Source: Polytrichum commune
Taxonomy: Eukaryota > Streptophyta > Polytrichopsida > Polytrichales > Polytrichaceae
Assembly: GCA_950295325.1 (NCBI GenBank)
Contig: OX485803.1
Span: forward strand, 28,892,001-28,956,000
Direction: 5' to 3'
DNA length: 64,000 nucleotides
Shown piece by piece: positions 29,125 to 59,538 of this stretch. The position numbers were made by a program, and so were the translations under genes. The first letter of the stretch is position 1. Every line of letters begins with the position of its first letter. The notes beneath the pieces are model-generated. The model worked only from the letters and a program-made list of their open reading frames with translations. It did no database searches and was not told where the DNA came from.

Positions 29125-29220
29125 CAGGGTTGTCTATCGCGACGTCATGACGGTGTCGTGCCGTCATGTCGTGTCGTGTCGTGACGGACCCCTCCGTCAC
29201 GACACAATAGGGTCCACGTA
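29125..29220. repeat. hAT left terminal and subterminal repeats
   Basis: CAGGGTTGTCTAT, then a dense run of GTCATGACGG, GTCGTG and CGTCACGACAC motifs that can fold on itself (GTCGTGACGG against CCGTCACGAC). The counterpart at 59430-59538 has the same layout in reverse. Confidence 0.85.
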
Positions 29221-29395
29221 GGGTCAACATAGGGTGAATGGACTAGGGTGGGTAAAATACTTACCTTCTTGCCAAGGTGGCGTCCTATGTGGCAGAAAAC
29301 GCCGACGTGGATGTGCATATTTCCCTTGCCAAGTAAACCATTTTGCCATTGTGTTTATCATTCTGTTAAAATCAAAGTAGAAAAATATGACTAAG
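29221..29395. other. hAT subterminal spacer
   Basis: No gene. Lies between the terminal repeats and G-rich array 1. Confidence 0.6.
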
Positions 29396-29700
29396 GAGGG
29401 TGTGGGGCGGACAGGTGGGGCGGACGGGGGAGGGGGGTGGTGCGGACGGCGGAGGGGGGTGGAGCGGACGGACGGGGGGGTGGTGCGGATGGGGGAGGGG
29501 GGTGGAGCGGACGGGGGAAGGGGTGTGGAGCGGACGGGGGCGGGGGGGGGGGTGGAGCGGACGGAGGGGGTGGGGGGTGGAGCGGACGGGGGAGGGGGTG
29601 GAGCGGACGGAGGGGGGTCGAGCGGATGGGGGTTGGGAACGGGGGGGAACGTTGGAGCGGACGGGGGAACGCGGAGGGGAGCGGGGGGGAGGGGAACAGC
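29396..29700. repeat. G-rich minisatellite array 1
   Basis: Irregular units of about 22 bp built on GGAGCGGACGGGGG. G-rich on the plus strand. The many proline-rich (minus) and glycine-rich (plus) ORFs across it are artefacts. Unlike arrays 2-4, no gene start lies next to it. Confidence 0.95.
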
Positions 29701-29880
29701 GTGCAATTGCGGCCATATATTTTCTGGCAGTAGAAATAATATTGCATATTCATGTAGAGGACTTCATTACCTATCCATGGATACCAAGAACTCATTTTTT
29801 GAACTTCATATGAATTTTTGAGAGCCAAAAAACCGAGACTATGTCCAAACTTCCAAAAAAAAATGTTTCTGAATTATATA
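29701..29880. repeat. Array-associated flank, copy 1
   Basis: About 165 bp (TTTTCTGGCAGTAGAAAT ... GAGAGCCAAAAAAC) almost identical to 33217-33365 and 36704-36845. It always lies beside a G-rich array, in the same orientation. Unknown function, non-coding. Confidence 0.9.
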
Positions 29881-30579
29881 AATATAAATATAAGCAATTG
29901 TGAAGAATCCTTGTGAGAGAATACCATTCATAAAATTGCACACCCAATCAAAACTTTATTCAATATCAAGTTTACAAATCACGAGTGAATATGAATCAAT
30001 GTAACTGGATGTGTAGTTTTTATCATCCATATTATGGTTGTATTTCATCCGTTAACGTTTATAAAGTCAGATTTACAAAGAAGGGAGTACCATTTTGTTA
30101 ACATTTAACACGTTTAACATTTATAGTGTGCAATATGTGGGGAGTAGAAGAAAGTTAACATTTAGAGATGTTGAGGATCACGTGTACAACCGATATAACT
30201 ATTGCAATATTGTGCTCAACTTTAGTTAACTAGATATAACTATAGTTGACTACATTTTGTGGCATACCAAAATTAGAATAAATATAGGTAACTGTATTTT
30301 GGCAAGACATATCACAAACAACTATAGTTAACTTGAACTTAGCACATGGATGTGATAACAACGATGTGGCCTCACGAGAGGCGAGAACCTTGGTTAGCCT
30401 CCCATAGACTTCTTCTCGATTATGGAGCAAAAGCCTCATGGAGTATGAACATTGCACTAAGATCCATAAACCTCATACAATATACAAGTTTTGTATGAAA
30501 AAATGATGGCTTTATTTACATCTCCAACGGTTACAAAATTGGTATGATTCAAAATTGCTGCAAAAAAAACAAAAAAAAT
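29881..30579. other. hAT interior, no intact gene
   Basis: AT-rich. The minus strand at 30457-30360 reads VYGRLTKVLASREATSLLSH, which faintly resembles AKKIYARDATSPLFQL in the kinase cargo just upstream. A duplicated fragment of the kinase tail is possible but weak. Confidence 0.4.
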
Positions 30580-32495
30580 CTATTTTGCAGTGTCACGGAA
30601 GCACATTGTCGGGTTAACCATGTTGTATGGAGGGGACTTCAAAATGTTCACTACGTGTGTGATGGTTGACCTTTCCGCTGGATTGGTCTTCGTCAATGAA
30701 TCCAATGTTAACTCAAACCGCATATTCAAGCCATTTGGATCACTGTTTAGCTGAAACAAGGGGGAAGTCGCATCCCTGGCATAAATCTTCTTTGCCAAAG
30801 CACCCACTGAGAAGGACTCCGAGAGAAACATGTGCCTATGTTTCTGAGCCATCCTCACCGGAGAGGTGGATGTTCCACGCTACCCTCGTACATGGAATAA
30901 TTTTGGACCAGCACAGTTGTATTTTGCTTTGTGCTTGTTCATCTCATCCACTGAATCTCTTCCATAGTTGGAGGGTGCGTCTTCACCTCCCCAGGATGCC
31001 ATGCCCCAATCACACACACCAATGTAAACCGTGTTATCACGGTCTTGTGGGAAATGCAGCATGACATTGTTGGGATTAAGGTCATTGTGCAACACGTCAT
31101 GCTTGTGCACTACATCCACAATGCACATTAGAGCCCATGCCAAATAAGCTCGATGCCTTCGATATACAACCAACCGTTTCCGTGCTTCAAAGTTTGTCCC
31201 AGGCATTTGAAGGATTGTGCGCTCGTGGGTTTCCGGAACGCTGAAGTCATAGACCCTCATGTTCTTCAAGGAGCCTCCATTCCACCACATCGAATAGGAT
31301 TCGTATGTTTTCATATTGAGGTATTGTAGCTTGATTACCCCAGGATGATCTACTGGACACGCCAATGCTTCAATTGAACGCTCCTTTCGGTTCTCCAGAC
31401 TATTCGTGGCCTTCATGGTCTTCCCAGCCCACTCTATCCAGCTAGGGATGAATGATGCTCCATGAATTGTGACTCTCCGCACCACTCCGAAGGTCCCTTG
31501 GAAGATTTCCTTATCCAAGGCTTTGATCTCCGCATTCCTAGGCAACCATATGACACCCTGCCGGCCCTGAGTGGCAATGTTGTCTGCCATCTGCCTGTCA
31601 ATAAAAATGGGAAGGTTGCAGGCGGATGTTCCTTTTGCTGCTATTACGCCTCTTTTCCAATTCTCTAGTTTCATGTACAGCTCGGACTTCCTGCCACTAC
31701 TATTTCCCTCGCTAGGATGCAGAGCATCATATGCCATTGTTGGATTGTAGATTGCTTCCCTGGCTTGTTGTTCAATCCAGGTGTCCCAATTGTTCATGCC
31801 CCTAGCTTCTTCAAACTCCGGTCCAGCCGTGGCTTCCGTGAGAATAAGCATCAATTCGTTCCTCACCAACTCTAAACCCTTTGTACCATCATTGAGGTAT
31901 TTTTTTCCAAATAAACCATGCTGTTATTTCTAAACCACTCCAACAGCACGACCCTACAATGGTTTCGAGCCTCATCGATCCGCGGGTCGCGTTTGCCTCT
32001 ATTTTTCTTTTTCCTTGATTGCGAACCTAATACCGCGGACCCCTCCTCCGTCCCTTCCGAAATTGCTGGGCGTTTCTGTCCCCGTCTTTCACCATGCTCC
32101 GAACCCTGAGGTACATCACGTGCAGGGCTTTCCGGTCTTGATGTCTGCCGTGTCGGAGATCGTGGTGGCACGGACTCACCACGAGTGGCTGCATTTATAT
32201 CTGTGGAACTACCTGAGCTTGGTCCCCTTCCTGTTCTCCCTCTAAGGCCACTGTTTCCCCGACTCCCACGTGTTCCACGGCTTCCACGTGTTTGGTTGCC
32301 TCCTGAATGACCAACAACAAAGAACTCTTCGCCAAACCGAAAAGGATCTGGACGTGGGGGACGGGCTGCAGTACTTCCACTTCCGGCATCGCTTCCCGTA
32401 CCCTCTCCAGTATACGCAGATGGAGTGCGTTGGAGCCAAGCACGGTGCACCCTCGTATCCTCGTCTTGGTAAGGAGCAATGTCCTCCCCCTCCAT
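30580..32495 (-). pseudogene. Cargo protein-kinase-like gene, one frameshift and one stop
   Basis: Start ATG at 32495 (reads MEGEDIAPYQ), 225 bp below a TATA box. The first segment to 31872 (about 207 aa) is Gly/Arg/Ser-rich and ends with a basic nuclear-type signal (SRKKKNRGKR) and a helix. A 1-nt loss in a G-run near 31876 shifts the frame. Segment 2 (about 31880-30883) is a kinase fold: glycine loop QGTFGVV, a lysine in AGKTMK, catalytic loop HNDLNPNN and DWG in place of DFG. An in-frame TAG (30882-30880, probably once TGG or CAG) precedes segment 3, which holds subdomain XI (NPAERSTI) and ends at 30580. The catalytic Asp, Asn and metal-binding Asp are present, so the ancestor was probably an active Ser/Thr-type kinase. 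The subfamily is not recognised. Lying inside the hAT with the array promoter, it is cargo rather than a resident gene. Confidence 0.75.
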
Positions 32496-32719
32496 CGTGA
32501 AAAAAACCGTGTGAGTGAGTGAATGTAGAAATGAGTGAGTGAATGTAGAAATCAGCAAGTGAATCTGGAAAAAAAATTGCGAGGGTTCCCCCACAATTTG
32601 CCCTGCCCTCCCAAACCCCCTGAGACCCGCGCGGTGCCGCTGTCCTTGGGACGGCAACAAGGTCTTGGGTCCCTTTGTGGTGGGAGGAGAGGAAAGTGAG
32701 GGGAACTAAAGCCCCACGG

Positions 32720-32789: not shown

Positions 32790-33205
32790 ACGTATGGGGA
32801 ACGTGGGAACGCGGGGGCGGACGGAGGGAACGAGTGGGCGGACGTAGGGGAACTCGGGCGGACGGGAGGGAACGTGGGGCGGACGGTAGGGGAACGTGGG
32901 GCGGATGGGTGGGGAACGTGGGGCGGACGGTAGGGGAACGTGGGGCGGACGGGTGGGGAACGTGGGGCGGACGGGTGGGGAACGTGGGGCGGACGGGTGG
33001 GGAACGTGGGGCGGACGGGTGGGGAACGTGGGGCGGACGGGTGGGGAACGTGGGGCGGACGGGAGGGGAACGCGGGGCGGATGGGAGGGGAACGTGGGGC
33101 GGACGAGAGGGAACGGGAGGGAACATGAACGCACGGAGGGGAACGTGGAGCGGACGGGTGGGGAACGTGAGGCGGACGGGAGGGAACGGGTTGAAGGGGG
33201 CAAGG
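32790..33205. repeat. G-rich minisatellite array 2
   Basis: Very regular 22-bp unit GGAACGTGGGGCGGACGGGTGG, roughly 18 copies. It lies immediately upstream of the kinase TATA box, with the C-rich strand as the sense strand. The long ORFs on both strands here are repeat artefacts. Confidence 0.95.
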
Positions 33206-33216
33206 GGAACAACGTG

Positions 33217-33365
33217 GAATTGCGGCCATGTATTTTCTGGCAGTAGAAATATTATTGCATATTCATGTAGAGGACTTCATTACCTATCCATGGATACCAA
33301 GAACTCATTTTTTGGACTTCATATGAATTTTTGAGAGCCAAAAAACGGACACTATGTCTAAACTT
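33217..33365. repeat. Array-associated flank, copy 2
   Basis: Same sequence and orientation as 29701-29880. Array plus flank therefore forms direct repeats on both sides of the kinase gene. Confidence 0.9.
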
Positions 33366-35033: not shown

Positions 35034-35068
35034 GGTTTAGGGTTTAGGGGGTTTAGGGTTTAGGGTTT
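35034..35068. repeat. Interstitial TTTAGGG telomeric repeat
   Basis: Five GGGTTTA-type units with one G-run slip. This is the telomere unit of most land plants and streptophyte algae. A degenerate GGGTTAGG run also occurs at 51368-51410. Confidence 0.9.
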
Positions 35069-35790: not shown

Positions 35791-36255
35791 ATGGATAGGA
35801 TGGGAGAGAAGAGAGACATGTTTGAGGGTCTAGGATGTGATGAGGAGATAGCAAATTTAGGTGAACCCGATATTCCATTCAATCCATCACCCGAGCGTGA
35901 GAGAAATGAGAGAAGTGCTAGAGATCGATTTCGTGATGACTATGTCATGACCCCCTTCTCACAATCTATACAAGCATGGAAGTTGAGGGCGGAGGAGGAC
36001 CAACGACGATATGCGGCGAAATTCGAGATCAATGCAGTGGAGAAAGACCTAACAAAAAGCGTGGGTGGAGATCCAAATGATGTGGTTGATTTGAGCGTGG
36101 ATATTTGGGTGAAGCCCGGGGATGTGGATGACAATTCAATCGACATTGAAGATGTCAAGGTAGCGGGAGAATCTTCAAGATCTTTGTCTTTTCGTCAGAA
36201 GAGGATAGGATTATCGCCTCATCGGCTACCATTGAAGGAACGGATGAAAAACTGA
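35791..36255 (+). CDS. Unrecognised 154-aa protein, hAT cargo
   Basis: Intact ORF with a TATA box at a plausible distance. The protein is acidic in its middle (DDVVDLSVDIWVKPGDVDD-like) and basic at both ends (ERERNERSARDR early, FRQKRIGLSPHR late). There is no signal peptide, membrane segment or domain that I recognise. It ends with KERMKN. It lies between the tandem-repeat block and array 3, transcribed toward the coiled-coil gene. It could be an intact small cargo gene or the 5' exon of a longer one; no good donor was chosen. Confidence 0.5.
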   Translation: MDRMGEKRDMFEGLGCDEEIANLGEPDIPFNPSPERERNERSARDRFRDDYVMTPFSQSIQAWKLRAEEDQRRYAAKFEINAVEKDLTKSVGGDPNDVVDLSVDIWVKPGDVDDNSIDIEDVKVAGESSRSLSFRQKRIGLSPHRLPLKERMKN

Positions 36256-36675: not shown

Positions 36676-36845
36676 GGGGTGCGGATGGGGGGACGCGGGA
36701 ATGTGCAGTAGAAATGTTATTGCATATTTATGTAGAGGACTTCATTACCTATCCATGGATACCAAGAACTTATTTTTTGGACTTCATATGAATTTTTGAG
36801 AGCCAAAAAACCGAGACTATGTCCAAACTTCCAAAAAAAGTTAAA
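36676..36845. repeat. Array-associated flank, copy 3, with array remnant
   Basis: A short G-rich remnant (36676-36703) and then the same 140-bp flank as at 29701 and 33217, followed by array 3. So the ancestral order was array-flank-array. A solo MITE end lies just before it (36613-36640). Confidence 0.85.
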
Positions 36846-36859
36846 AAGTGCAGATTCAA

Positions 36860-37650
36860 GGGGAACGCGGGAGCGGACGGATGGGAACTCTAAAGCGGAC
36901 GTAGGGGAACATGGAGCGGACGAGAATGAACGTTGGAGCGGACGTAAGGGAACATAGGGCGGACGGAGGGGAACATGGGAGCGGACGGAGGGGAGCGGAC
37001 GGGGGAGCGGACGGGGAGTGGACGGGGGGAACGCGGGAGCGGACTGAGGGGAACGGACGGAGGGGTACATGGGTGCAGACGGAGGAGAGCGAGGGGGCGG
37101 ACGTACGGGAACGGGTGCGGACGTAGGGAACGAGGGGGCGGACGTAAGGGAACGAGGGGGCAGACGTAAGGGAACGGGTGCGGACGGGGGCGGGAACGGG
37201 TGTGGGTGCGGACTGGGGGGGGGGAACGGGTGCGTACGGGGTCGGGAACGGGTGCGGACTGGGGGGGGGAACGGGTGCGTACGGGGTCGGGAACGGGTGC
37301 GGACTGGGGGGGGGAACGGGTGCGTACGGGGTCGGGAACGGGTGCGGACTGGGGGGGGGGAACGGGCGCGGACGGTAGGGAACGGGTGCGGACTGGGAGG
37401 AGAATGGCGCGGACGGGAGGGAACTGGTGCGAACTGGAGGGGAACGCGGGGGGCGGACGTAAGGGAACGGGTGCGGACTGGGAGGGGAACGGGTGCGGAC
37501 TGGGGGGGAACGGGCGCGGACGGGAGGGAACGGGTGCGGACTGGGGGGGAACGGGCGCGGACGGGAGGGAACGGGTGCGGACTGGGAGGGGAACGGGCGC
37601 GGACGGTAGGGAACGGGTGCGGACTGGGTGGGGAACGGGGAGCGGATGGA
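36860..37650. repeat. G-rich minisatellite array 3
   Basis: The longest of the four. Units are about 22-24 bp (GGGAACGGGTGCGGACTGGG), with a higher-order about 45-bp form containing GTGCGTACGGGGTCGGG at 37225-37370. It lies directly upstream of a TATA box, here with the G-rich strand as sense. ORFs on both strands are artefacts. Confidence 0.95.
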
Positions 37651-37654
37651 GGGG

Positions 37655-38097: not shown

Positions 38098-39825
38098 ATG
38101 GATACGGCAAGTGAAGGATTTCCAGACATGACAAGTGGAGGATCTGGAGACATGGCAAGTGCAAGTGGAGGATTTGGAGGCATGGCAAGTGGAGGATCAG
38201 GTTGTCACAGATCACATGTACGCAAGGCCGCTGGGTTGGAGTGGGATGTTTATGATGACGACACCCAAAAAGCCAGGGCATGTTGGGAGAATGTACCACA
38301 ACCGTGGTCAGCGAAGACTGCAATGCAGTACGTGGATTTCCCTCACTTTGATCGGTTGTGGCCAAGACCTTGTCACGAGCGACACTGCAAGGCCATCAGT
38401 GCGAGTTATATGCAGCTTGATGACGTGGAGGCAAAATGGAGATTCCTAACGATACTTAGAAGTATCTCCAATTTGGATAGATGGCCCAAGAGTGCAATTC
38501 CAAAGTCGGTGGCGTGTATGATGTATGCGGAGCACGTGTTGCGAGTTAGGGTGGATTGGTCAAGTTTGGCAGCTCTGCATAATCAGAAATTTGGGGTATT
38601 GGAATTGCATTCACTAAATGCACAGTTCCAGATATTCCATACACTCCCGTTCCGGAGTGGTTCAGGAGGAATCCTCGACTAGTGGATGAGCCTGGGGCCC
38701 CAATTCCAGAGGGTCGGGAACCAAAAAAACCACGTAATCGTAAACGACCAGCCAATGACGTGGAGATGGCCATCGAGGAGGCGTTTGAGCATATGGATGA
38801 GGGCATGGAGGCAAATGTCGAGGTCAACAACCTGATCAACGACGTGGTTAACGAGATCCTAGACGAGGTAAACCTTAGTGAACTTGGAGCGGACCCGATG
38901 GAGAGCAGAATGGAGGAATTACGTAAGCAACATGCGTTGGAAATTCGTGAGTATAAAACGATGATTTTCGAGTTGGAAAATCGAGTTGCAACACTTACGA
39001 TGGGGGAGGCTGGCAATTCAAGTAGTACACCAATTAACCTTCAGTCTTTAGAAGCAGAGAGGGATGCAGCTTTACAGGAGGCCAAGATTGCAAAGTCACA
39101 AGCTCTGGAAGTATGTATGAGGAATGAAGTAATGCGAGGAAAGATAGAGGCTTTGCAAAAGGAGGTGGTGGACATGCAACAACAACTTCAAGTGGTCAAT
39201 GAAATGGTTGTTGATCACGAAGCCAAGATTGGCGGACTAGAGGAGCAGAATGCAAGGTTGAAGAAATTCCTGTTGGATGCGATTGTGAAGCGCAAGAATA
39301 TGAGGACAAGCACATTGCTTGCTATGACTAAGGCTCGTCAATTTGAAGCTGAGTTTGAGAGCATCCAGAAAGAATGGAACCGCAATCAGAGAATGCGGAA
39401 CATGATGCTCACGTCATGGCCAGAAGATGAGCATATGTACCCTAGTAGGTGGGATATAACTAATGAGTGGACATTGCCAAACGGGAGCATCGATTGGCGT
39501 CAAGTGACCGACCCAGATCACCATTGGGATGTGACCCAAGTGCATGAATATCCATTCCGCATGAGGGGTGAGTTGTTATGGCCAAATCCACAAGAACAGG
39601 CTGTAGTTGGCTGCAATTGATGCACTTTTGCATAGAGTTGCGGATGATGCGGTATTGAGATGGTTAAATGGTGGGCCTAGACCACGTAATGTTGTTCCAT
39701 TGTCTCCTGGTAGTCGTCCATACCTCACCCGTGGAACAACGCGAAGCATGGAAGCGGGGGAATCATCTCGAGCACGACGAGGATCTATTTCAGCTAGAAT
39801 AGATCTCGATTCAGATTCGGATTAG
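38098..39825 (+). pseudogene. Cargo coiled-coil protein gene with two frameshifts
   Basis: Three overlapping frames read as one protein of about 575 aa. Segment 1 (38098 to about 38620) opens with a Gly/Ser-rich repeat (GGSGDMAS) and a Trp/His-rich globular part (VDFPHFDRLWPRPCHERHC). A slip near 38625 leads to segment 2 (about 38630-39605): IPYTPVPEWFRRNPR, a basic nuclear-type signal (REPKKPRNRKRP), then a long heptad-rich coiled coil (QSLEAERDAALQEAKIAKSQ to EEQNARLKKFLL) and a Trp-rich tail. A second slip near 39605 leads to segment 3 (to 39825), Ser/Arg/Asp-rich, ending DLDSDSD. No domain family is recognised; it might be a DNA-binding or dimerising accessory. A 31-nt intron at the first slip is too short to be likely. 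Confidence 0.6.
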
Positions 39826-39829
39826 GCAT

Positions 39830-43088: not shown

Positions 43089-43124
43089 CACTATGCCAAA
43101 TACATGCTTTTTTGACTGGGGTTT

Positions 43125-44028
43125 TTGACTAAAAATGGTATAAAACCAGGTACTTGACTAGGACTACAGTAGTGGCAAAGTGAGTCAACTGCTTGTCAGG
43201 TCGGACCAGTCGCTTGCAACAAGTTGACTATGGTTTATTCTGTGGGCATTTCGTTCCCTATGCACGTTCCCAATGACCTTTTGGGACCTCGATTGGCACC
43301 GCCCTTGGGACCTTGTGTGACTTGACTACATATAGTCAAGTATTGTTAACTAACAGTAGTAAACATGTAGTGCCTACTCTAGTAAAGATAGTTAGGAAAT
43401 CTTGACTATACCTAGTAAAAGCTTAGTCATGTCAATAACTATGTCGCTTCACTAAGTCTAGTCATTATGATTTGTGTATAATCCAAAAAAAACATAGTCA
43501 AGTTTGCTCCAACGTTCCACCATATTTAGTCACATTGTTGTGACTAGGATTAGTCAAGGGATTGTTCATGGTGGATAATCTAGGGTTTACCTTGACTAAA
43601 ACTAGTCACACAATTGGCATTCAGCTGGTTTTAGGGTTTTTTTTTTCACTACTTGGAATCGTTTTAGTAATTGTTGTCAATTGCAAACTACTACGCATAG
43701 TCAACTCCTCATTCATTTTAGTCTTGCATTCCAGATTCTTGACTGACTCTAGTCAGCCCATGTGAATTGTTTTAGTCTTCATTTTTAATATTGCTATCAC
43801 AAGTAGTCAAGTTAATACGACTAGTGATAGAGATAGATGCATATCCATGAATGTGCAATCTGTACTACTTCTGGTAACAAGCTCAGTTGCGCATATTCAA
43901 ACATTGCATAGAAACAGTCACTGGTGGCAATCCATACACTGGTTAAAAGAGCTTTTTATATTGAAAATAGTTGTTATTGCAAATAGTCCTCCCATAACCA
44001 CATGCGGGTTCCTAGAACTAGTCAAAAA
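43125..44028. repeat. CACTA left subterminal TTGACTA repeats
   Basis: Dense TTGACTA, TAGTCAA and CTAGTCA motifs in both orientations, non-coding. In well-studied CACTA elements such subterminal motifs are bound by the TNPA-type protein; here that is inference. Confidence 0.75.
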
Positions 44029-44419: not shown

Positions 44420-44690
44420 ACTAGACCTAGTCAACTATTAGTCTAGACTTAGTCACGGGTTAGTCCAGCATTAGTCATGGGGTAGTCTAGCATTAGTCAA
44501 TGGTTAGTCAAACATTAGTCATGTGTAACTAGACTGTAACTAGACTACAACTTGACTATAACTAGACTGCAATTTGACTATCTCTGCACTTTGACTGTAA
44601 CTACACTGCAAGTTGACTATAAATATGAGTTAGTCACAACTTCAAGGATCACATTGACTATATCAAATTTGTCAAGTACATTATAAACTT
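44420..44690. repeat. Internal GACTA/TAGTC repeat block in an intron
   Basis: Runs of TTAGTCA and AACTAGACT. Similar blocks lie at 45105-45290, 45545-45775, 46440-46720 and 52130-52275, all between exons or genes of the CACTA. They are not limited to the ends. Confidence 0.75.
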
Positions 44691-46720: not shown

Positions 46721-47161
46721 GTTACTACAACCTCCTTGGATGTTTACTAAGCCATAATTGAAGAACTATATCCTTAGGTTGGATCACATAACATTGCATT
46801 GATCGTCACCAAATCATCTTGTCAGCAGTTGTTTAGAAGGAATTTAAACATAGCTTCAACAAGGATTGAAAATCACTCAAACTTTGATTTGATTGCCTAA
46901 TATTACACCCTGCATAACATCATCTCAAGACCCTTATTCCATTCCCCACATAGTACATTTTGTAATACTAGGAAACTCTAAGGGACATTTAGAGAGATAG
47001 CTTTTATAAAAATGTTCATGAGTTCAGATACTAATCTTGTAGATAACATTAGTACATGTGTAAGGGGAGGAAAACACTTCAAGCTACGAGGTGGTTATCA
47101 AATTCAAGACTGCAGGGTGACTAGAACATGATTAGAGGTTGACTAGAGGCAAATTACTTAC
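46721..47161. other. CACTA intron sequence
   Basis: No repeat or ORF of note, between the 48154-47162 and 46357 exons. Confidence 0.5.
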
Positions 47162-49593
47162 CAGATATGCGGTGACCTCCCCCTCGGACCGACCAGCATG
47201 AGAAAGCCGCTTCAGTTAAGCTCGGTTCTGAGTCAGAGTCTCTGCTTGCTTCACCTTCTTCTCATCTGCGATTAGTGCCGACAGGTTGACCCAATGGTCT
47301 TGGCGGATGTGCTTGGGTTGCTCCTTGCCAGCGATCATTAATTTCTTCATGGCATACCTCTTCATCTTTAACTGTGTTTTCAAATTGGAATGAAAATACC
47401 ACTCTGTAACGTGCCCAATGCCACCTTCGTACTCAAAGGTGTTATCCACCCTCTTCTTGATATTTAGCAGTGTCATTGGATTGTGGTCGTTGAAATTATC
47501 GACGCTGAAGTCCAGGTCCACTGCATGGCCACGTAGGCATTTCAACCATAGGTGTCGGTTTACCCCGCATGGACTCCCCTTCATGTCAACTTCTACGGTG
47601 TACCGTTTTTTTCCCTGTTGCTCTCGGACCGGTGCTTCCTGCTGCTGTTGCCGTGAATGCAGCCGCCTCCGATGGCGCTTATCAGCATCCAAATTCCGTG
47701 ATAATCCATCGAAGTCTTCTCCTCCACCTACATCCGGTGTGAGCTTTGCCGCTTGACGTTGCGCATGAGCCCTTTGTACCTTCAACATCTCCAACTCTTT
47801 GCTCAAAATCTTGAGGTCCATACTTGCATAGTCTTCCGAACCAACTTCAGAGGTCTTAGCAGAATAACGTGAACCTTCGTACCTCCGAGCATTAGGTGGT
47901 GCAAAGTCTGGGTATAGGCTCTCCTCGTCCAAGAAGTCGTGGGCGTCCTCATCGTTCGATGACCACGTCACACTCGTCAACATGGTGCGTTTTGGCTTCA
48001 CTGCTGTCGATGAAGGTTGTTGCACTGTTTGTGGCACCGCAAATTTCGTGGCAGAGGGTGTTGGTGGCCGTGAACGTCCTTCCTCGGTTGTGGTCTTGGC
48101 ACTGCAACGCCTTCTAACTTCCCACTTCGTAGGTTCTGACAATACAAGTTTGGACTGCACATTTGGTACACAATGACTTAGTTCACTATCACCGCACGTA
48201 TTAGGGACTATTGCCTTAACAAGTATGAAGTCATGTCAAAGCTTTAGAGAGGCCAACCTGCAATTGACTGTGATTTGACTAGACTTAGTCATACTAGTGT
48301 TAGTCAAACGAGTACAACCTATAACTACGAGTTGACAAGTTCTCCTGTAGACTGACTGGCACTAGTCAAGACGAACACTTAATTAGTCAAGTATCTCTAC
48401 ATTAGTCAAGTTTGTCTAGTTCATTGGTCATGTATGCAAGATATGTGCATCAAGAAGTGTGGTCAATCAGCACTCCATATTCATTATGTAGTGCAACAAA
48501 GTGGCTTATGAGGTCATGTACTTGTTCTTTGTGGCAGGTTCTAAATTACTTGTAGGTTCATTAGCCAACAGTTTTGTAACCAAGGGATGAGTGCGCATAG
48601 TAGATGCATAATCACTTGTAGGTTCAAATTTCAAGCCTTATATCCTAATTACGTGCCGCCAAGTTCACAACACGTATGGGGGACTATTAACTTAACAAGT
48701 ATGAAGTAATGTCAGAGCTTGCGAAAGGCCCACCTGCAAAGGAGTCTGACGTGCTGGGGATGGTGGCAACAATGCTTCCACTGACCTTCTGGTCCTCGTC
48801 CCCGCTTCTTCCAATGCCTGCAGTGCCTGCGCAGTAATTAGTCTGCATGTGTACTGGTACTACACGGCTCTTTAGGTCAATACATATAGTTAGAGACACT
48901 GGTTAATCAAGCAATTGGTCATTGTAAACAACTGGCACCACAGTGGTGAAATACCTACCAAAGGGTACTACACACAGTCACCCTATTTGCATACTTCACT
49001 AGTACCAATACAGGGTTTACTAGATTTGACTAGTGTTAGTCATACTGGAGTTAGGACTGCAGAGACAGTCATACTAGTGTTAGTCATACTAGTTTGAGAA
49101 ATAACCGGTTGAAAGTTCAAGAGTGCAGGAAAATCACCGTAAAGCTATGAGGCAATGGTTTTACTGGATCTGCTTTACCTTGTAGAGGTTAGCAGGCTAG
49201 CTCAAACACCAATCTATATAGCTATGGAGGAGAACTTGTACCACTATTTAGATGAAAAAATTACTAGTAGTGCCGTATCAAGATGTATCCAGTGCCAACA
49301 TTAGATGAATAAAGTGCCATCATAGCCAGCTGTAAGGGCAGGGCCAATCAGAGTGAATAAGGAATGATGGAAACAAACTGCGAAATTACAACTATGCATA
49401 AATTTGAAGCTTGCGGTGAGTGATCGCCGTCTTGAACACCTTGTTTCTTCTTATTGATTTTCACAATGAGTGACTATAGTGATTCTATATTGTCACACAT
49501 GCATGGCCAGCTAACATACTAATAGGATAAAAGTGCAACAACCTCAAGTTCAGCTGGTCGTAAGGCGGCCTTTAACTGCTCAGTTTCCTCCAA

Positions 49594-50675
49594 CTGCAAG
49601 ACTTGCATAAAATCATCAATGTTAGTGTGCAGACAAAATGCACGGTAATTTTCAAAATAAAGCAGACACAAGTTGTGATTCCAAACTTAACTAGTGAAAA
49701 TGGATATGTGAAAATGCATTAACCTCACATTGTAACCGTGAAGTACAGAAATTGCCGGGTTTACAACTACACTACAAGGTTCACAACTCGTTGATACTCC
49801 CTCATTGCTCCATGAATTCTCACCTGCAGTTATCTGTAACATATTATAAGAATTACCACAAGAATTGCCACAAAATTGGACAACAAAAAATTGGAGTGAA
49901 AGACAGAAAATTTGAGTGAAATTAAAATGGTTATTCATCATCCTGATTGGCCCAGTTTCTCCTAAAGGATGTGAAACACGTGATTAGTTAGTACGAGAGA
50001 CACCACAAAACTAAATGATTCTTTCTTTTTTCTCATCAGAACATAGGAATTTTGAAGATGGCTTATCCATGTGTATACAAAAAGGTTTCAGAAATTGCAT
50101 TAAGCTACAATGTGCAGCCATTGAAATGCAAAATTTCACCACATCCACAGTGCACCCTCCACTAATTGACAACATTCTAATCAACTTAGACAAACCCCAC
50201 CATTTATAATCAATTATTTTTAAGTCTAATGTTCACATAAAATCTCAGGAGTCTTGAGTTGCAAAGTTCAGCACCTTCCCTATCTGTAAGACACCATGGT
50301 ACACAAAATGAAACCCAACTTATATATGGTACAAAAAGCCTTGTCTTTGGTTAGCAGTTCTTCGATGTCCAGGATTCACGTAGATTGTTACTATGAGATC
50401 TCAAGTACCAAATTCTCAGACTCAGCGATTCCAGTGGCGATAAATTTGAGGCTCCTTCGTTTTCTCACATCTTCAAAAAGACACTTATCTTTCAATCTAT
50501 GGGGAACTACATGCATAAGATTCCGACCCTAAACTTAAACCTAACCCCCCTCTGTGCAACCACCAAATCACGGAAAACACATCTTTCAACCCATCAGATT
50601 AGATTTACATTGCGAGTTACAGCACACCCCTAGGGTCATCACACACATCAACCATTTAAAGAGCATTTCACTGGA
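49594..50675. other. CACTA intron region, possible small exon near 49810
   Basis: At about 49816 the minus strand has an acceptor-like CTGCAG|GTGAGAATTC and a short open stretch, which could be a further exon of the companion gene. No domain is visible. Confidence 0.35.
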
Positions 50676-51410
50676 AGGATCGACTGGTTGAGTTTGAGAG
50701 ACCAGACCGGTTGAGGATCAAGACTTAAGGAGAATCACCGATCCCAGCAAATGTGGTGGCAAAACGCACCTCTCTCCCAGGCAGGTGACCACTCGGCGTC
50801 GGGGATGCTGCTCTCGTGGACCGCGTCACCCTCCTCGGCAGGACCTCCCGTTCCTTGATCGAAAAAAGACTTGGGACTGCCTCTGATTCTAAAAGTTCTT
50901 TCCCCGCCTTCTCTGCTCCGCCGACTTGAGATACAAGTGCAGGCAACCCTAAGTCGCGCAACTTCCTGTTGTTCCTCTCAATGTTCTGCAACCGAGAGGC
51001 CTCGTATGGAGTTAGAACTACTCCTTCCTCCGCTGTGGGGGACGCGGTTGGCTCATTGTTGCTGCTCCTTGGGGAATCGCCGCTCCTTGGTGAATCGCTG
51101 CTGCTTGTGGTGGCCGAACTATCGCTCCATGGTCCACCTTCACTCTCGCTACCTGTGTCCATGTCGAGACAGCATGGACAAAGTGGTGGCGGCAGCCCTC
51201 CAAAGCGACGCCATTGTGAAGGAGATGGTTTTGTACACCATACTAGCGAGCCGTTCACCAACAATTCGTGCACAATCGATGGTTCACTTTGGTGGCAACA
51301 ATCGAGGAGTGTAGCTGCCGGCGTTGAAGCTTGCTGGGACGGAGGGTTAGAGTGCTCCACATGGCGGGGAGGGTTAGGAGGGTTAGGGTTAGGTTAGGGT
51401 TTAGGGACCG

Positions 51411-52984
51411 TTATGGGAGGTACCGACACTTATAACTTTGAGGACCGACTCAACGTCACACTAACTTTAGTTTAAACAAACTTATTCAACTGACAAATTA
51501 ACACCAGTGGCCATGCCTACGAATGTATAAACCAACAGAGTTTACCATTTCAGAGCTCTTTAATTTGCTTATAACCGAAATGTATAAACCAACAGTATCC
51601 ATTATTTTACTGTTCTTTCACGTCCATACTGGCATAACAAACGTGTACACGAGGACAGGGAAAGCTCCATCCATTCTCGAGGGTGATCTGGTGGACTCAT
51701 TGTTAGAGTTGACGAGTGAGCAAGTTAGAATTAGTGTCATTGAGTAACTTGAGAGGATTCTTCTTGTATGCTATCAAGCTTCTCTGATGGTGTTTTATTG
51801 CAACTCATTTCAACTCGTTGCAACTCTGTTCAAGTTTTTTCTATTGCATGTAAATGAACTGCAGAGATATTTTGGGATGGCATGGGGCATCAAATCTCTC
51901 TCTTTCTCTCATCCATGGGCATTCACGATTTGAAAAACATATAGGCCTGGTGGATGAGTGTGAATTTGCTGCGAAAAAAGACCTGGAAAGCCAGTTGATA
52001 AGAGACTAATTTCATAGCGATGTTTAACGATGCTTTGAACAAACTTATGCATAAGATTTCAAGTGATTTTTAGGAGATGTTGTTTGAGAAGGATTTAGTG
52101 TTCTCATGATACGAACTGATCTAGTGACTAAATGTTGACTACAACTAGATTAAATGATGACTAAAACTAGACTAAATATTGACTAAATGTTGACTACAAC
52201 TAGATTAAATGTTGATTAAAACTAGACTACATGTTGACTACAACTAGATTAAAAGTTGACTACAACTAGACCACAAAATTTGGAAGCTTGCTATTACAAT
52301 TTGCGGCGTTGAATTGTTCCAGTCTTCATCCTATATCTCTAATTTCCTCAAAAAATTTGGGTTGAATCTGCAGAGGGTTTACAACGGTGAACAAAGGTTG
52401 CTGTGGGTTGGGGCCTTACAACGGTAAAATTCCATGCATCCCTACAATTATAGATGAATTAGAGTTGAAGGAATGTAATAGGATATAATTTGTGTACACT
52501 GCAGCTAGGGTCATTACTCTTCAGTCACTAATTTTTTGTGCCTTCATTTCTAGTTTCAAAAAGGAGCAGAGTGCCCGTATTCTCACATTTGCTTTGAATC
52601 TGCCTCTCATATGACTGTAACTAAAGGGTCAATTCTTCCGCAAATCTCTGCAACCTTAAGGTTGCCCAAGTATTAGGACAATTTACAAACACCCAGATTT
52701 CACAATATCTTAGAAATTTGGATTGAAGAACAAAGTACATGAAGTTCACCAAACATTATAAACTCCTGGACATGACTTGTTGTTTCAACTTTTGTACATA
52801 AACTGTAATACAACATATTGAAATGAGAATTGGAATGATTCCTTCCAAAAATTGGTTCTTGTTTGTGCAAATTTATCATTTAATTTGGCATGAGTTTGCT
52901 TAGGTCGCAATATTGCAATCTCTCAATGTTTGGCATCTCTTCCCAAAGGTAGGTGCTATGAGTGGGGAGAATTGGCAGTTGGTT
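51411..52984. other. CACTA divergent intergenic region
   Basis: Lies between the 5' ends of the companion gene and the Tnp2 gene and should hold both promoters. A degenerate GGGTTAGG run (51368-51410) lies just above the companion gene. A GACTAAA/CTAGATTAAATG block is at 52130-52275. No clear TATA box. Confidence 0.45.
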
Positions 52985-53190
52985 AAAAAATAACCGGTTG
53001 ATTTTGAGAAATAACCGGTTGAAGCTGAAGACTGCAGGAAAATTACTTATCATTTTAAAAGAATTTGTAGAATATACCCCCGATTAATAAAAGAAAACCG
53101 GAGGATGTCAACATGTAACCAGTTGGACTTGCAAACACTTGGATCTCAACCGGTCATGCCCAAAAATCTCCCTGATCACTGGGTAGGTGA
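52985..53190. repeat. AACCGGTT dispersed repeat inside the CACTA
   Basis: A nearly complete copy of the family seen at 5112-5320 (AACCGGTTGA, GAAAACCGGAGGATGTCAAC, ATGCCCAAAAATCTCCCTGA). Partial copies are at 49088-49140 and 50676-50745. Confidence 0.75.
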
Positions 53191-53511
53191 TGAAGGTCCT
53201 TGTACCGTACCTAGCTCAAACTTTGACTATTGCTTAATTATTATCAGGAGCTTATTGTGATACAAATATAGAATTTGAAACCAAGAGTCCTCTGGTCCTC
53301 TATGATGCATGTATAGAATTTGAAACCCAAGCAACAGGGTTGATGACACTGGTCATGTAAGATGTTGACTAGCCATAGTCACATATGTTAATGTTGACTG
53401 CCTTGCATAGTGAAGCCATCATAGCAAAGCTCCATTGACACAAATATATGCTCCAGCAAGACGTAGCTCTTCGACTGAGGAGTTGCAGTCCACCAGATTG
53501 AAGTGTCCTAG

Positions 53512-56500
53512 ATGGACCAGAATTCAAGAGATGAACTCTTGCACCTACAACTCTGGGACTTAGAGGAGAAGGAGGCAAATGGATTGCACCTCTCATCATA
53601 TCCATGTCCGTGTAAAAACTGCATGGGAGGGAGGGTTCTATCAAGAGAAACCATTCGCAAGCATTTGAGGCATTACAAGCGCGATCCACAGGTCCAAACA
53701 TCTATATTGGTACGAGTTTGTAATCCTAAAACTTGTTGAATAACCATAGGCACATAGGTATATGTTGTGACTACGGGTAGTCATAGGTGTAGATATGTGG
53801 GAGTAGAAGCACTGAAAGACATTGGCCGCATATTGTGTGGCACTCATTGCGGGACAGTTGTTTATCGTGAATTATTGTTTCCTCATGATTGTCCAGTTCA
53901 AAGGGGTTTGGTGGCCTTTCAAACAAGGAGATTTTCATGCTCAATTGAAAGTTGTCACTGAATACCTCTTATAAGTGATAACGTTCACACTTCAAGCTAC
54001 GAGGTGGTTATCAAACTATCTCTTTGAGTATGAAGTATGTGCACCTTTAACCACATACCGTGACTACATATAGTAAACAAATAGTAAACATATAGTAAAC
54101 ATATAGTAAATATGTGACTACATATAGTAAACATATAGTATTTGACTACATGTAGTAAACATTCAGCAAATATGTGACAGAAGAGTTGTTAACAGGTGTA
54201 GCTTAGCCTAGAAGTCGCTTCTGACATCACCGCTACTGTGGGATTATTTTGGCACGTGCATATGCAGTCTGGTCTTAGTGGCAAAGAAAGCACACTAAAT
54301 ACTGACGTTCCCCTTCCAAGCACAATGGATGCCGAAGACGAGGAACGCAACAATGTAAATGAGCATGCGAATGATGAAGGCGACTTTGAAGTGCAGCGGA
54401 TGATAACAGAGTGTTTTGGCCGGTTTGAGAACGACATTGCTGATAGTCAGGAGGAGGAAATACTTGAAGATGAACGAGAGTTTATGGCCGATGAAGGAAT
54501 GGATCTACTGGAAGAATCTTCCATCCCACTATACGAGGGAAGCAAAACAAGCCGAGTAGTTGCCGTCATTCTCCTTCTCAATTGCTTTGCAGTTTTTGGA
54601 GTCTCCAATGCATGCGCCACGGAATTGCTGAAGTTGCTATCGGAGCTACTACCTGGCAAAAATACTCTTCCGAAATCATACTATAAAGCTCGCAGGTATC
54701 TAAGACAACTTGGATTATCATTTGTCTCGATACATGCTTGTGTAAATGGGTGTTGTTTATTCTGAAAGGAGTTAGAAGACGCAATGAATTGTCCAAAGTG
54801 TGGACAGTTGAGGTATAAATCGGAGTCAAGTAGGACACCAATGAAAGTTTTGCGGCATTTTCCACTCGTACCACGCCTGTGCAGGATGTATCGGTGTACA
54901 TCTCTTGCAAAATTGAATAAGTGGCATACTGAACGGAAGGATTGGGTTGGCAATGTGGAGTGCGTTCCGGACTCGAAGGCATGGAAACACATTGACTCCG
55001 TATATCCAGGGTTTGCGCTGGAAGAAAGGAACATACGACTAGGACTTGCTCTAGACGGTGTGAATCCGTTCTCAAACCAATCCCTAAGTCATTCCACTTG
55101 GCCAGTTGTACTTCTAAACTACAATCTACCACCATGGTTGGTGACAAAGCGTTTTTTCTTAATGTTGGCCCTCATCATTCCTGGGAAAGAGAGCGTCACA
55201 TCCGAAAACGTGGACGTGTACCTTGCTCCTTTGATTGAGGAGTTGCAGGAACTTTGGGAAGGTGTTGATGCAGTAGATGCATCTGCGGAGAGTGTGAATA
55301 GGAATTTCAGGTTAAAGGCCATCCTCATGTGGTGCATTCATGATTTCCCGGCATATGGATTAGTGTCGGGGCAAGTTACAAAGGGGTACAGAGGGTGCAC
55401 CGAATGCGGTCCTAGTGTAACAACCCGACGTTCTGCAGCGTTAACGAAGAATGTATATTTAGGACATCGTCGTTTTCTGAACCGAACCCATCCATATCGA
55501 AGATTGCAGAGAGCGTTTGATGGATCACAAGAGACCCGTCCACCACCAAGACAACTAAGTGGCAGTGACATAGTCCGTTATGCGATGAGGAGAGAAGATT
55601 GGTTGGCTAACTCCCCACGAAACAGAGCAGGAGGGTTAAACGATCCAGTACATGACACGGGCGTGAAGAGACTGTCTGCATTATTTGCACTTCCATATTG
55701 GCAGGTGAGTGTATAGATCTAAACCCTTTGTCATACGCTCACGACTTAAAATAAGACTAACATTAGTCAAAGGATAACTCAGAGCTTTAGAAATTGGTTT
55801 GGAGGACTGCCGACAGTCACCTTCTAGTCACATCCACGCAAAGTTGACTGAGGTCCAATATGATTGACTACTCATAGTCAAAGCTAGTATAATAGTGTAC
55901 AGTACATGATGACGAAGAGCACAGAGAGCATTCCACTAATGAGAGCCACTGTGTGAATGCAGTCTCTTACAATACGGCATGTGCTGGATGCAATGCACTG
56001 TGAAAAGAACATATGTGAGAACATCATGAAGACAATTTGGGGTTTAAAGGATAACCTCAAAGTACGGTTGGATCTAGCGGAAGCAAACATTAGGCCGGAA
56101 TTGCACGCAGTTGCTGGTGGTGCAGGGGGGACATTGTGGATACCAAGAGCTCCGTATATTCTATCAAGAGCAGAGAAGGTTGTGTTCACAAATATCATTC
56201 GTGGATTGAAGACTCCTAGCAACTACGTGGGCCAATTGTCTAAAAGAATTACAACCGATGGAGAGTTACGGGGTATGAAGAGTCATGACTACCACATTCT
56301 AATGCAACAAGTCTTGCCGTTGTGCTTACGAACGCTCTTACCAAAGGATGTCCGAATTGCCATTATACGGATATGTAGAGTTTTTGCACGTTTGTGCGTG
56401 AAGTCGGTGGACCCTTCAAGCATGACTGATTTGTTCAATGAGACAGCCGTTACTATGTGTATGTTGGAAAGGGTCTTCCCACCAGCATTCTTCGATGTCA

Positions 56501-57954
56501 TGTCCCACTTGCCTATTCATTTGGTACAACAGTTAGACCTTTGCGGTCCAGTGCACACCCGGTGGATGTACCCAATGGAACGGTACATGAAAACTCTGAA
56601 AGGGTACGTGCGTCTTCGAAGCAATCCTGAAGGCTCTATGGCACAAGGCTACATCATGGATGAAGCAGTGGGGTTTTGTACTGAATATATGCAACATTGT
56701 TGTAAAAGTGAGCGTCGTGTGTGGGACGACAAAGAAGAACCTGCAATGAATGGCGAGGTCATAGAGGGAAATGGGCGGCTACGGTTGTTGCCAGACGAAC
56801 TACGTTTTTGGATACATGAATTTGTGCTCAACAATGCAGAGCCATTGCAAGTTTACAGAGAGTATGTCCACGAACTCTGTTGTTGCTCCATTGTTGACTA
56901 CATTGTTGACTAGTCATGATAGTCATAAACGTTCATAATGTGACTAAATGCAGTAGTAGATATCCACAAAGTTGACTATATATAGTCATCATTGCTATTT
57001 GGATGACTATTTTCAGTCATTGCACTTTTTAAGTTGTGACTATTACAGTGTCGTGGTAATTGAAGTAATTAATGTCACCAAAATGTGAGTGTGTGGTGTA
57101 GACGGCACGCTGCAGAAATGACCCGAAGGAAGAGGTCAAGGGAAGACATGCGACGTCAACACCGGGGTAGGAGATTGCAGTACCCAAGCAACATGGAAGA
57201 GGAGGCCTTCACGGCCTGGTTTCCTGTTGTAGTGCAAGATGACATCAATCAAGGGGTTGTTGTATCCATGGATGTTCAAGCATTGCTAATGCCACCCTCT
57301 CGGAACGCCAAGTCCTACAAGTCAATGTATGCGTACGGCAACCACATACGGGTTCGTAGCGTGGAATAAAACATGAATACGTGTGATAGTGGTGTGGCAG
57401 CTACCTTTTTGCAAGCATGTCGAGCGAGCAACAGTTCTAGAAATGTACGGACAACAAATTTAGAATACATAGGATGGGTGGAAGAAATAATAGGGGTAGA
57501 CTATGGAGAGTTTGAGCTGATAGTTTTGTATTGCATGTGGGTGAGAGCGAACCTTCGGGGTGCTGAAGCAACAATGAAACGTGACGACTACGGTTTCACA
57601 TTAATCAAATACGACCGTGTCATCCCATATTCGGCAGACTCCTTTGCATTTCCCCTCCATGTGCAACAAGTATTTTTTGTGGACGATGTGGAGAATCCCG
57701 AATGGAAAGTTGTGCTGAGGAAAGAAGCTCGAGGTGCAAGAGTGGCGTCTACATCTGAGAGGAGACCTGAAACCCTCAGTTTAGTTCTAGGCAGAGATGA
57801 AGACTACCGTGGATTGAGATCTAATATTTTAAACAAAGATGTGCAACCTGGCACACCGGTGCTAGAAGGCTACACAGTACTAGAAGCTGAGGACGTTCAT
57901 GTAGCACTGCAAGAAAGAGAGGAAGAGCCAGATTACAATGAAGAGGAATTATAG
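53512..57954 (+). pseudogene. CACTA Tnp2-type transposase, two in-frame stops
   Basis: Exon 1, 53512-53709, is the transposase-associated domain (CPCKNCMGG ... IRKHLRHY). The next exon begins near 54264 and runs to 55704 (perfect CAG|GTGAGT donor) with an acidic region, then the Tnp2 core: MNCPKCGQLRYK, RLGLALDGVNPFS, YNLPPWLVTK, DFPAYGLVSG. Exon 55963-56861 continues LPYWQ|SLTIRHVLDAMHCEKN and a DUF4218-type part (HRxxYPMERYMKTLKGYVR-like). The last exon, 57102-57954, holds EEEAFTAWFP, the SGV motif and a DUF4216-type domain (VDYGEFELIVLYCMWVR). Splice phases agree throughout from 54784 onward. In-frame stops: TGA at 54763-54765 (probably CGA) and TAA at 57367-57369 (probably CAA or similar). 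Role: the catalytic transposase of En/Spm-type elements. Confidence 0.85.
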
Positions 57955-57957
57955 TGT

Positions 57958-58224
57958 GATCTTTTGAGACGTCGACTGATGTAGTCAACATTGACTAAAA
58001 CTTGTCAACATTGACTAAAACTAGTCAAATTGGTCACCATGATCGTACCCAATGAGTAAAATTTTGTTCCCTAAGCTGCTCCCCTCGAGGTCCTCAAATT
58101 TTTTACTACAACTTGACTGGGAATCTTCTGGGAATCTATTTTTACTAGTTGTAGTCCTCATGTGACTAGTTAGTCTAGTTCGGTCAACTTGCTGTAGTCA
58201 AAAAAACCTGCTTTTGGCATAGTG
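57958..58224. repeat. CACTA right subterminal repeats and end
   Basis: GACTAAAACT(A/T)GTCAA copies and other GACTA motifs leading to the terminal TTTGGCATAGTG. Confidence 0.75.
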
Positions 58225-58861
58225 CTTGCCTATCTAAGTCAACCTTTTTATCAGTTAACAACTTCGTACGGATGGCATTGTACGATGGTGGTGTGTAGGC
58301 TGGCATTCGATGACGGGCAGTTTCACGCACAACATGAACAAATGCAGGATGTCTCACAATATTGAAAGGAATGTTAGCTTCATAAAAAGCCGTTGCCCAT
58401 GCTTTATCAAGGAGTTGTTTTGTTGACACATTGAACCCCTCCGTTATGTTGAGTTGACGTAGTTCACGAGGAGGTGTGCCATATATCACAACATCAGAAT
58501 GTTGAGTGGATTGGGACATAAGCAAAGGCTCTGTTTCACTAATTACGGAGTCCGCTATAATAGGCTCCAGAGGTACAATATCTGGCACCGGAGAGTCCTC
58601 ATTTACAATGCCTACATGTAAGGGCACAATGCCTCCGCAATGTTCAAACAAGACCCTAATATGCGGGGGAACCATCCTACATGTGGAAACATCACAAGCA
58701 CCCCCTACAGGAGGTCTATAACCAAGGTGGGCCAACATTCTATTTCCTCGGTAAGATATGACGAACGGGCAAAACCTACATTTAACCTGCCTTTGTGATT
58801 TACCGGGAACCATCCCCTTATCCTCGTACCAATGATCCCATGCATCATTTCGGCGTGGCAT
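58225..58861 (-). CDS. hAT transposase, N-terminal 213 residues (split by CACTA)
   Basis: ATG at 58861 (MPRRNDAWDHW). It follows a 3' splice site (TTTGCAG|G at 58877), so a 5' UTR intron is likely. A BED-type zinc finger comes first: CRFCPF, then RMLAHLGY and the conserved VSTCRMVPPHI tail. A linker follows, then the start of the DUF659 region (HPAFVHVVRETARHRMPAYT and PSYNAIRTKLL). The reading frame reaches VDLDRQ and the first base of the next codon, where the CACTA begins. Joining to 43085 after removal of the CACTA and one CTT gives VDLDRQ|VKEKLGNSVDKYG without a shift. In the present state the ORF runs 13 codons into CACTA sequence and stops. Confidence 0.9.
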
Positions 58862-59090
58862 GACTTCAACAAAACCTGCAAATACAAACAAGTTAGAGCA
58901 AGTAACTTTGATCGCATACTAGGTCCTGTTCAAGAGTGCCACAAGGGCAACCCTAATTCACAGTCACTAGATTGGACAAAGTATCCTCTGCATTCGGGTC
59001 TCACGCATTCAACCCTCACTCCTCAAAGGAGAATCAAAAGACTTGAGACACACTATGTCAGTGGAGGCAAAAATGGCACCTTGAACCCTC

Positions 59091-59099
59091 AATTTATAG
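59091..59099 (-). promoter_or_regulatory. TATA box of the hAT transposase
   Basis: CTATAAATT on the minus strand, just below G-rich array 4 and about 235 bp above the ATG. The 5' UTR intron would lie between. Confidence 0.65.
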
Positions 59100-59113
59100 T
59101 ATTCGAATCGGAT

Positions 59114-59308
59114 GGGGGAGCGGACGGAGGGGGGGGGGGGGGGGCGGACGGGGGAGTGGGGGGGGGGGGGAGCGGACGGACGGGGGGGGAGCGGACGGGG
59201 GGGGAGCGGACGGGGGAGCGGACGGAGGGGGGGAGCGGACAAGGGAGCGGACGGACGGGTGGGGAGCGGACGGGGGGGGGGGGGGCGGACGGGGGGGCGG
59301 ACGGGCTC
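59114..59308. repeat. G-rich minisatellite array 4
   Basis: Units of AGCGGACGGGGG separated by G-runs. It sits between the right end of the hAT and the transposase TATA box. The ORFs across it are artefacts. Confidence 0.95.
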
Positions 59309-59429
59309 TAGTAAAATTTTCCCCACTTTACCTTTACTTTGCTGACATGTCATCACACGTGGACATTGTAAATCCTACGTGTCCAAATTGGGTTAATGTA
59401 ATTACACAAAAAAATCGGTAAAATTCAAG

Positions 59430-59538
59430 TCCGTCAGGATAAAGACAGCATCCGGCATAATGTCGTGACGGATACGTGTCGTGACGGCACGACATTATGC
59501 CGGGATTACCCTCCGTCACGACACAATAGACAACCCTG
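59430..59538. repeat. hAT right terminal and subterminal repeats
   Basis: GTCGTGACGG, CGTCACGACAC and CGGCATAATGTCGTG/CACGACATTATGCCG hairpin-forming motifs, ending in ATAGACAACCCTG, followed by the CACCTATG duplication. Confidence 0.85.

Follow-up and report, generated by a model that had tools for sequence, protein, structure and literature searches.

Evidence for a family of four-gene hAT transposons in the genome of Polytrichum commune

The window analyzed here is a 64,000-nucleotide stretch of DNA from Polytrichum commune (assembly GCA_950295325.1, contig OX485803.1, hereafter C1; C1:28892001-28956000), and its positions 29125-59538 are a single hAT insertion. This insertion very probably represents a family of 15-16-kb hAT elements in which a transposase, a divergent kinase, a coiled-coil/RING-H2-like protein and a protein of 154-184 amino acids (aa) form the standard set. 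The accessory genes belong to the gene set of the family, rather than being cargo acquired at the window locus. Elsewhere in the genome this gene set recurs inside the same two ends, flanked by 8-bp duplications, which shows that the unit spread as a whole.

The window insertion and its boundaries

The terminal inverted repeats (TIRs) of the element are formed by CAGGGTTGTCTAT, which is present exactly at 29125-29137 on the forward strand and at 59526-59538 on the reverse strand. This match alone is little proof of the boundaries, since the number of matches is at chance level: with up to two mismatches, the word has 2 matches in the window against a mean of 1.91 expected. The flanks read CACCTATG/CAGGG...CCCTG/CACCTATG, and the duplication fits at 8 bases but at neither 7 nor 9. 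Furthermore, the subterminal motif TGTCGTGACGGA (one mismatch allowed) has five matches in the window, restricted to the two hAT ends, with 0.17 expected. The boundaries are therefore settled by the exact 8-bp duplication and the common subterminal motif, together with the other genome copies described below.

The initial annotation of this locus was borne out in its matching ends, its perfect 8-bp duplication, its internal hAT transposase (DUF659, 1.2e-30; Dimer_Tnp_hAT, 4.3e-11) and its size of about 15.3 kb without a nested CACTA transposon, which is 15,275 bp once the CACTA and one copy of its CTT duplication are removed. The kinase-like, 154-aa and coiled-coil genes that it named are likewise present, at 30580-32495 (-), 35791-36255 (+) and 38098-39825 (+). 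Its description of the element as giant holds only for a length of about 15-16 kb, as half of the 30-kb span is the nested CACTA. The latter occupies 43089-58224 (15,136 bp; TIR 14/16, target-site duplication (TSD) CTT), and its removal along with one duplication copy leaves the transposase as one 1,065-aa frame. The window copy itself is decayed, with the kinase and RING genes broken and the transposase interrupted by the CACTA. The features of the insertion are as follows, ORF denoting an open reading frame.

29117..29124, no strand: left TSD copy, CACCTATG, matching the right copy
29125..29404, +: left end of the hAT, with the TIR CAGGGTTGTCTAT and TGTCGTGACGGA as subterminal motif
29407..29690, +: left GCGGAC array, G-rich, unit of about 22 bp
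29727..29852, +: 126-bp internal repeat, copy 1
30580..32495, -: protein-kinase-like gene, frameshift near 31905, in-frame stop at 30880-30882
32805..33188, +: GCGGAC array on the upstream side of the kinase gene
33240..33365, +: second copy of the 126-bp internal repeat
35791..36255, +: 154-aa ORF, no Pfam match, lacking its own GCGGAC array
36705..36830, +: third copy of the 126-bp internal repeat
36859..37654, +: GCGGAC array on the upstream side of the RING/coiled-coil gene
38098..39825, +: coiled-coil gene, RING-H2-like finger lost by internal deletion, frames disrupted
40525..43088, -: C-terminal part of the hAT transposase (DUF659, Dimer_Tnp_hAT)
43089..58224, +: nested CACTA inside the transposase gene, outside the hAT family (Transposase_21, DUF4218, DUF4216, TSD CTT)
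58228..58861, -: N-terminal part of the hAT transposase, with a BED-like zinc finger that scores weakly and under the Pfam cut-off (E 0.094)
59114..59305, +: GCGGAC array of the right end, which also lies immediately upstream of where the transposase starts
59311..59538, -: right end of the hAT, with TIR and subterminal motifs
59539..59546, no strand: right TSD copy, CACCTATG, matching the left copy

Other copies, internal arrays and neighbouring repeats

The genome searched comprises 407.8 Mb, with 406.07 of 407.81 Mb in seven large contigs. Queries of 236 bp (left end) and 228 bp (right end) gave 603 and 595 first-look candidates, respectively, which are loose counts and not confirmed copies; 40 were scored for each end, at 99-100% identity. 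Twelve other loci were fetched from the left-end list, ten first (k01 to k10, 20 kb each) and two added (m1 and m2). Both ends were found in 10 of the 12, delimiting elements of 17,103 bp (k01), 15,974 bp (k02), 16,237 bp (k03), 23,070 bp (k04), 15,675 bp (k05), 807 bp (k07), 16,020 bp (k08), 15,879 bp (k09), 15,702 bp (m1) and 12,604 bp (m2). In k06 and k10 the right end was not found within 20 kb, and counts of whole copies do not include these loci.

All four genes are recognizable in eight of the ten two-ended loci (k01-k05, k08, k09 and m1), and the gene-bearing copies share the order kinase, small ORF, RING/coiled-coil gene, transposase. Locus m2, which has a perfect duplication, keeps the kinase, small ORF and RING gene and only a remnant of the transposase, from which it follows that the accessory genes may be able to move as passengers of other copies. 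Conversely, k07 carries no genes and consists of the left and right ends joined through one GCGGAC array, and a 1,457-bp derivative is nested in k01 with a perfect 8-bp duplication of its own. Perfect 8-bp duplications flank 10 of the 12 two-ended elements (the window, k01-k05, k09, m1, m2 and the 1,457-bp derivative); k07 matches at 7 of 8 positions. Seven of the eight four-gene copies are thus perfectly duplicated and one is not. In addition, each of the four genes has an uninterrupted version at one or more loci or in a database relative. The other copies therefore confirm that the two ends bound one unit, with perfect 8-bp duplications elsewhere, and that identical genes in identical order lie between the same ends at other loci, which decides in favour of the initial annotation both of the refuting tests that it had named. 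What had been called cargo does recur inside the ends, and is better termed the element's own gene set.

Three loci at 21.87, 21.92 and 21.95 Mb of C1 (G000:C1), 34-51 kb apart, share a left end-kinase offset of 1,282 bases and equal stop numbers, and are probably one copy spread by local duplication.

The association of ends and kinase genes extends beyond the fetched loci. Among the 40 scored left ends, which are the best matches to that of the window and not a random sample, a kinase gene lies 1.2-4.3 kb inward from 33, with 0.05 pairs expected by chance; this count pools 40 DNA and 68 protein kinase matches, or 82 distinct loci. The DNA kinase matches alone place a kinase at 20 of the 40 left ends (0.012 expected). 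The kinase first-look candidates numbered 111 by DNA and 254 by protein. Compared with the window type, m1 and m2 carry the kinase segment (about positions 709-4067 of the element) in the opposite orientation, and the 40 listed left ends divide into 22 with the kinase in the window orientation, 11 with it inverted and 7 with none listed within 6.5 kb. The family thus comprises two subfamilies, which are distinguished by whether the kinase module is inverted and each of which is present as whole insertions. In a forward test, five of five kinase loci without a listed end had a left end where the inverted type predicts it (89.7-97.9% identity over 233-281 bp), with the exact 13-bp TIR word in four of the five. 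Similarly, two of the three kinase loci L033-L035, viewed with 1.5-kb flanks, hold part of a left end; L034 is among the five tested.

A further property of the family is its GCGGAC arrays. The word GCGGACGG has 42 matches in the window, all of which lie on the forward strand within four such arrays, located at the left end, on the upstream side of the kinase and RING genes (one each), and at the right end upstream of the transposase. Looser words do occur outside the arrays, GGAGCGGAC once at 38886 and GGGAACG seven times. The four same-orientation arrays are in the same places, with varying length, in seven of seven copies (the window, k01, k02, k03, k05, k08 and k09), and all seven also contain the three 126-bp repeats at 94-100% identity. 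GCGGAC on either strand is found five times in about 23.2 kb of flanks from six copies, and twice in about 33.6 kb of the window outside the element. Across the seven copies, the terminal arrays start 283 bases from the left end and finish about 225-242 bases from the right end. The arrays are retained in the 807-bp and 1,457-bp derivatives and, as k07 is two ends joined through one array, we infer that interior collapse between direct GCGGAC arrays yields such short derivatives. Collapse of this kind would also account for ends outnumbering kinase genes.

The 126-bp repeat was considered as a structured RNA, for which the evidence is unconvincing (z of -1.71 and -0.81), and Rfam at gathering thresholds gave no match over 29000-60000. 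Several other repeats lie in and around the element. The CACTA holds 11/22-bp tandem arrays at several places, and its ORFs at 47216-48235, 50725-51393 and 45818-46393 had no match in a Pfam scan. Inside the hAT, 33388-33975 is by eye similar to a miniature inverted-repeat transposable element with imperfect inverted ends, of which 33706-33824 is 94% like 1622-1739 outside the hAT; 35031-35560 opens with a short run of TAGGGTT, resembling a plant telomere, and continues as an 84/164-bp tandem array. Almost all of the window lies between the arms of an inverted repeat of 403 nt (79%; 102-504 and 59771-60173) and of a second one of 57 nt (1-57 and 60220-60276), the arms being 59-60 kb apart; these are perhaps two copies of another mobile element. 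To the right of the hAT, ORFs at 60207-62489 resemble by eye a Mutator-type transposase with a SWIM-like CxC...CxH motif, without a Pfam match.

Encoded proteins, their relatives and selection

Compared with its uninterrupted relative P0001, the window kinase has a frameshift and a stop that disrupt it. The kinase is a divergent one: Pkinase is below the cut-off in the window ORF and in P0001 and above it in P0022, P0001 narrowly passes APH, and profile matches were obtained to FUS3 and B-Raf chains. In 19 aligned kinases, the K, HxD, N, DWG and PE columns are invariant, and these we take to be catalytic-type residues. Of 68 scored kinase matches, 42 are without an in-frame stop. The coiled-coil gene of the window, compared with the uninterrupted P0126, shows frame changes and has lost the part coding for the RING. 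This domain is recognized in P0126 by zf-RING_2 (1.5e-05, below the cut-off) and in P0136 by zf-RING_11 above the cut-off, and the RING protein matches RNF38 RING chains in the PDB (1.5e-06). In the window the small ORF encodes 154 aa, and the versions in four of six further copies have 184 aa; a Pfam search of its product gave no match. The transposase matches Hermes chains weakly in a profile search (E 0.0015), and among 13 aligned relatives the D, D, CxxH and ERNW columns are invariant, presumably as conserved catalytic residues.

Protein searches returned 53 kinase, 72 transposase and 15 RING-protein clusters, the best 7,999 and 8,000 candidates having been scored in the transposase and RING-protein searches, respectively. 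The closest species-named relative among the matches scored is the Ceratodon purpureus protein P0071 (58% identity, 74% of the query), and a lichen metagenome-assembled genome is the named source of one kinase relative. Scans of IMG/VR and GTDB contigs gave no relatives. Contigs of equal size were noted for kinase P0022 and hAT P0059 (15,563 bp), for P0037 (the longer of its two) and P0094 (6,480 bp), and for kinase P0023 and RING protein P0139 (476,656 bp). These equal sizes suggest that kinase and hAT genes are also paired in diverged relatives, a co-location that is read from the matching sizes and not from the contigs themselves.

Selection was assessed as the ratio of nonsynonymous to synonymous substitution (dN/dS) in nine window-type copies (the window, k01-k06, k08 and k09), with codons in misaligned stretches masked. 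Substitutions were few, the pairs are not independent and the ratios are without confidence limits. Within the window type, dN/dS was 0.88 for the transposase, 0.63 for the kinase, 0.55 for the small ORF and 0.48 for the RING gene, and the unmasked pooled pN/pS from seven copies was 0.91, 0.70, 0.61 and 0.64, respectively. Between the window-type copies and m1, the corresponding dN/dS values were 0.48, 0.53, 0.83 and 0.50. Single transposase pairs gave 0.51 and 0.42, and 0.82 within the window type; the kinase pairs with m1 gave 0.63 (k08), 0.58 (k02) and 0.47 (k06), the first two being the comparisons of the two uninterrupted kinases. We read these values as individual copies decaying, with constraint on the lineages that founded the subfamilies acting alike on transposase, kinase and RING gene and hardly on the small ORF.

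Known elements, mechanism and alternative explanations

In its CAGGG-type TIR, 8-bp duplication, DUF659 and hAT dimerisation domain, the element resembles the hAT superfamily (Ac, Tol2, Hermes), while its 15-16 kb and four genes are unlike the usual hATs. Tol1 and Tol2, for example, are 4.4 and 4.7 kb and encode a transposase (PMC10175614). The initial annotation had not known multi-gene hATs of this design as a described class; the fungal ToxhAT of wheat pathogens is a precedent, with 14 kb, eight ORFs, a hAT-like transposase gene and several genes between its TIRs (PMC6737239). ToxhAT, at about 14 kb, is like the present family in size and in its multi-gene hAT design, but it is fungal and its genes are ToxA, patatin-like and MFS genes (PMC6737239). 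Moreover, most annotated ToxhAT instances are described as fragments (PMC6737239), compared with ten gene-bearing two-ended copies here (the window, eight four-gene loci and m2). A word search of the main text of the ToxhAT paper (PMC6737239) did not return 'kinase', and no patatin-like or MFS domain was present in the ORFs scanned; ToxA was not searched for. The idea of a multi-gene hAT is thus preceded by ToxhAT, and a plant multicopy hAT with kinase and RING genes is without a match in the literature searched, which covered few subscription papers. A text search of a review of giant transposons (PMC6431247) gave no matches to hAT, DNA transposon, kinase or TIR, which is weak evidence.

Two other classes of large element offer partial parallels. 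The fungal Starships, which are tyrosine-recombinase based and can reach about 700 kb and contain accessory genes by the hundred (PMC12134995), are similar in being large and carrying several genes; no tyrosine-recombinase domain was found in the ORFs scanned, a subset of all ORFs. The VANDALs are Mutator-like elements, unlike the present family with its hAT transposase. Arabidopsis VANDALs, which have VANC anti-silencing proteins, carry accessory genes and a short element-specific motif that forms dense same-orientation arrays in several noncoding regions (PMC5735166). The family described here likewise combines accessory genes with dense same-orientation arrays that are rare outside the element.

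Full and deleted copies alike are most likely moved by cut-and-paste, with the hAT transposase acting at the TIRs and subterminal motifs; the loci read are all insertions. The accessory genes would move along and be kept for helping the element. That the window is instead a mosaic of nested or neighbouring elements, with ends from different short hATs and genes from other insertions, might be supposed from the CACTA and other repeats that it contains. This is next to impossible, being refuted by the other genome copies: the same structure is found elsewhere with 8-bp duplications at the outer ends, and the 20 and 33 end-kinase pairs are to be compared with 0.012 and 0.05 expected. The standard gene set nevertheless has several points weighing against it. 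No full copy examined has all four genes uninterrupted, k08 is without a duplication, and L033 showed no left end in its 1.5-kb flanks, which are maybe too short to reach one. The end-kinase pairing comes from the best-matching ends, and the loose first-look counts suggest that many ends are without genes. With regard to constraint, the transposase ratio of 0.88 within the window type is near neutral, the small ORF reaches 0.83 between subfamilies, the two uninterrupted kinases paired with m1 give 0.63 and 0.58 and a third 0.47, and all of these ratios have the statistical limits given above. The pairing in relatives depends on contig sizes.

Some of these points would favour the kinase, RING gene and small ORF being host genes captured once and carried as passive passengers that selection does not keep, in line with the fairly high ratios within the window type (kinase 0.63, small ORF 0.55, RING gene 0.48), the many broken copies, and gene-less derivatives that, by the loose counts, may outnumber gene carriers. 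Passive capture is nonetheless unlikely, as the kinase and RING gene are constrained about like the transposase between subfamilies, a GCGGAC array lies upstream of three of the four genes (kinase, RING and transposase), uninterrupted relatives at 50-60% identity retain the catalytic-type residues, and equally sized contigs pair the kinase with a hAT in relatives at 37-62% identity. Since constraint on the kinase and RING protein looks roughly equal to that on the transposase, and since the two seem to accompany hAT transposases in diverged relatives, they could serve the element rather than the plant, by tuning transposition or countering host silencing, which is the weakest step of the proposed mechanism. 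In its plainer form, the GCGGAC arrays would be subterminal repeats bound by the transposase, much as the AAACGG subterminal repeats of maize Ac are, and the kinase and RING protein would regulate the transposase by, for example, phosphorylation or turnover. This is possible, if somewhat doubtful: two of the four arrays adjoin the ends and arrays are retained in the 807-bp and 1,457-bp derivatives, but the other two lie inside the element, one ahead of the kinase gene and one ahead of the RING gene, and the subterminal TGTCGTGACGG motifs seem the likelier end-recognition site. By analogy with VANDALs, it may tentatively be proposed that the kinase, the RING ubiquitin-ligase-like protein and the GCGGAC arrays (at the ends and before three of the four genes) are a long-standing regulatory kit of this plant hAT lineage, although this is rather improbable. 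Equally speculative is that such a kit would act in escape from host silencing or in activity control, convergent with VANC of VANDAL; in the boldest version, an element protein would bind the GCGGAC arrays as VANC binds its targets.

Cut-and-paste elements are usually seen as a transposase plus little more. If the kinase and RING genes are held under transposase-like constraint, the view of what DNA transposons encode would be widened, and genome annotation might mistake such transposon genes for kinases or ubiquitin ligases of the plant. The family would also be a second system for testing self-regulation or anti-silencing by element-encoded proteins.

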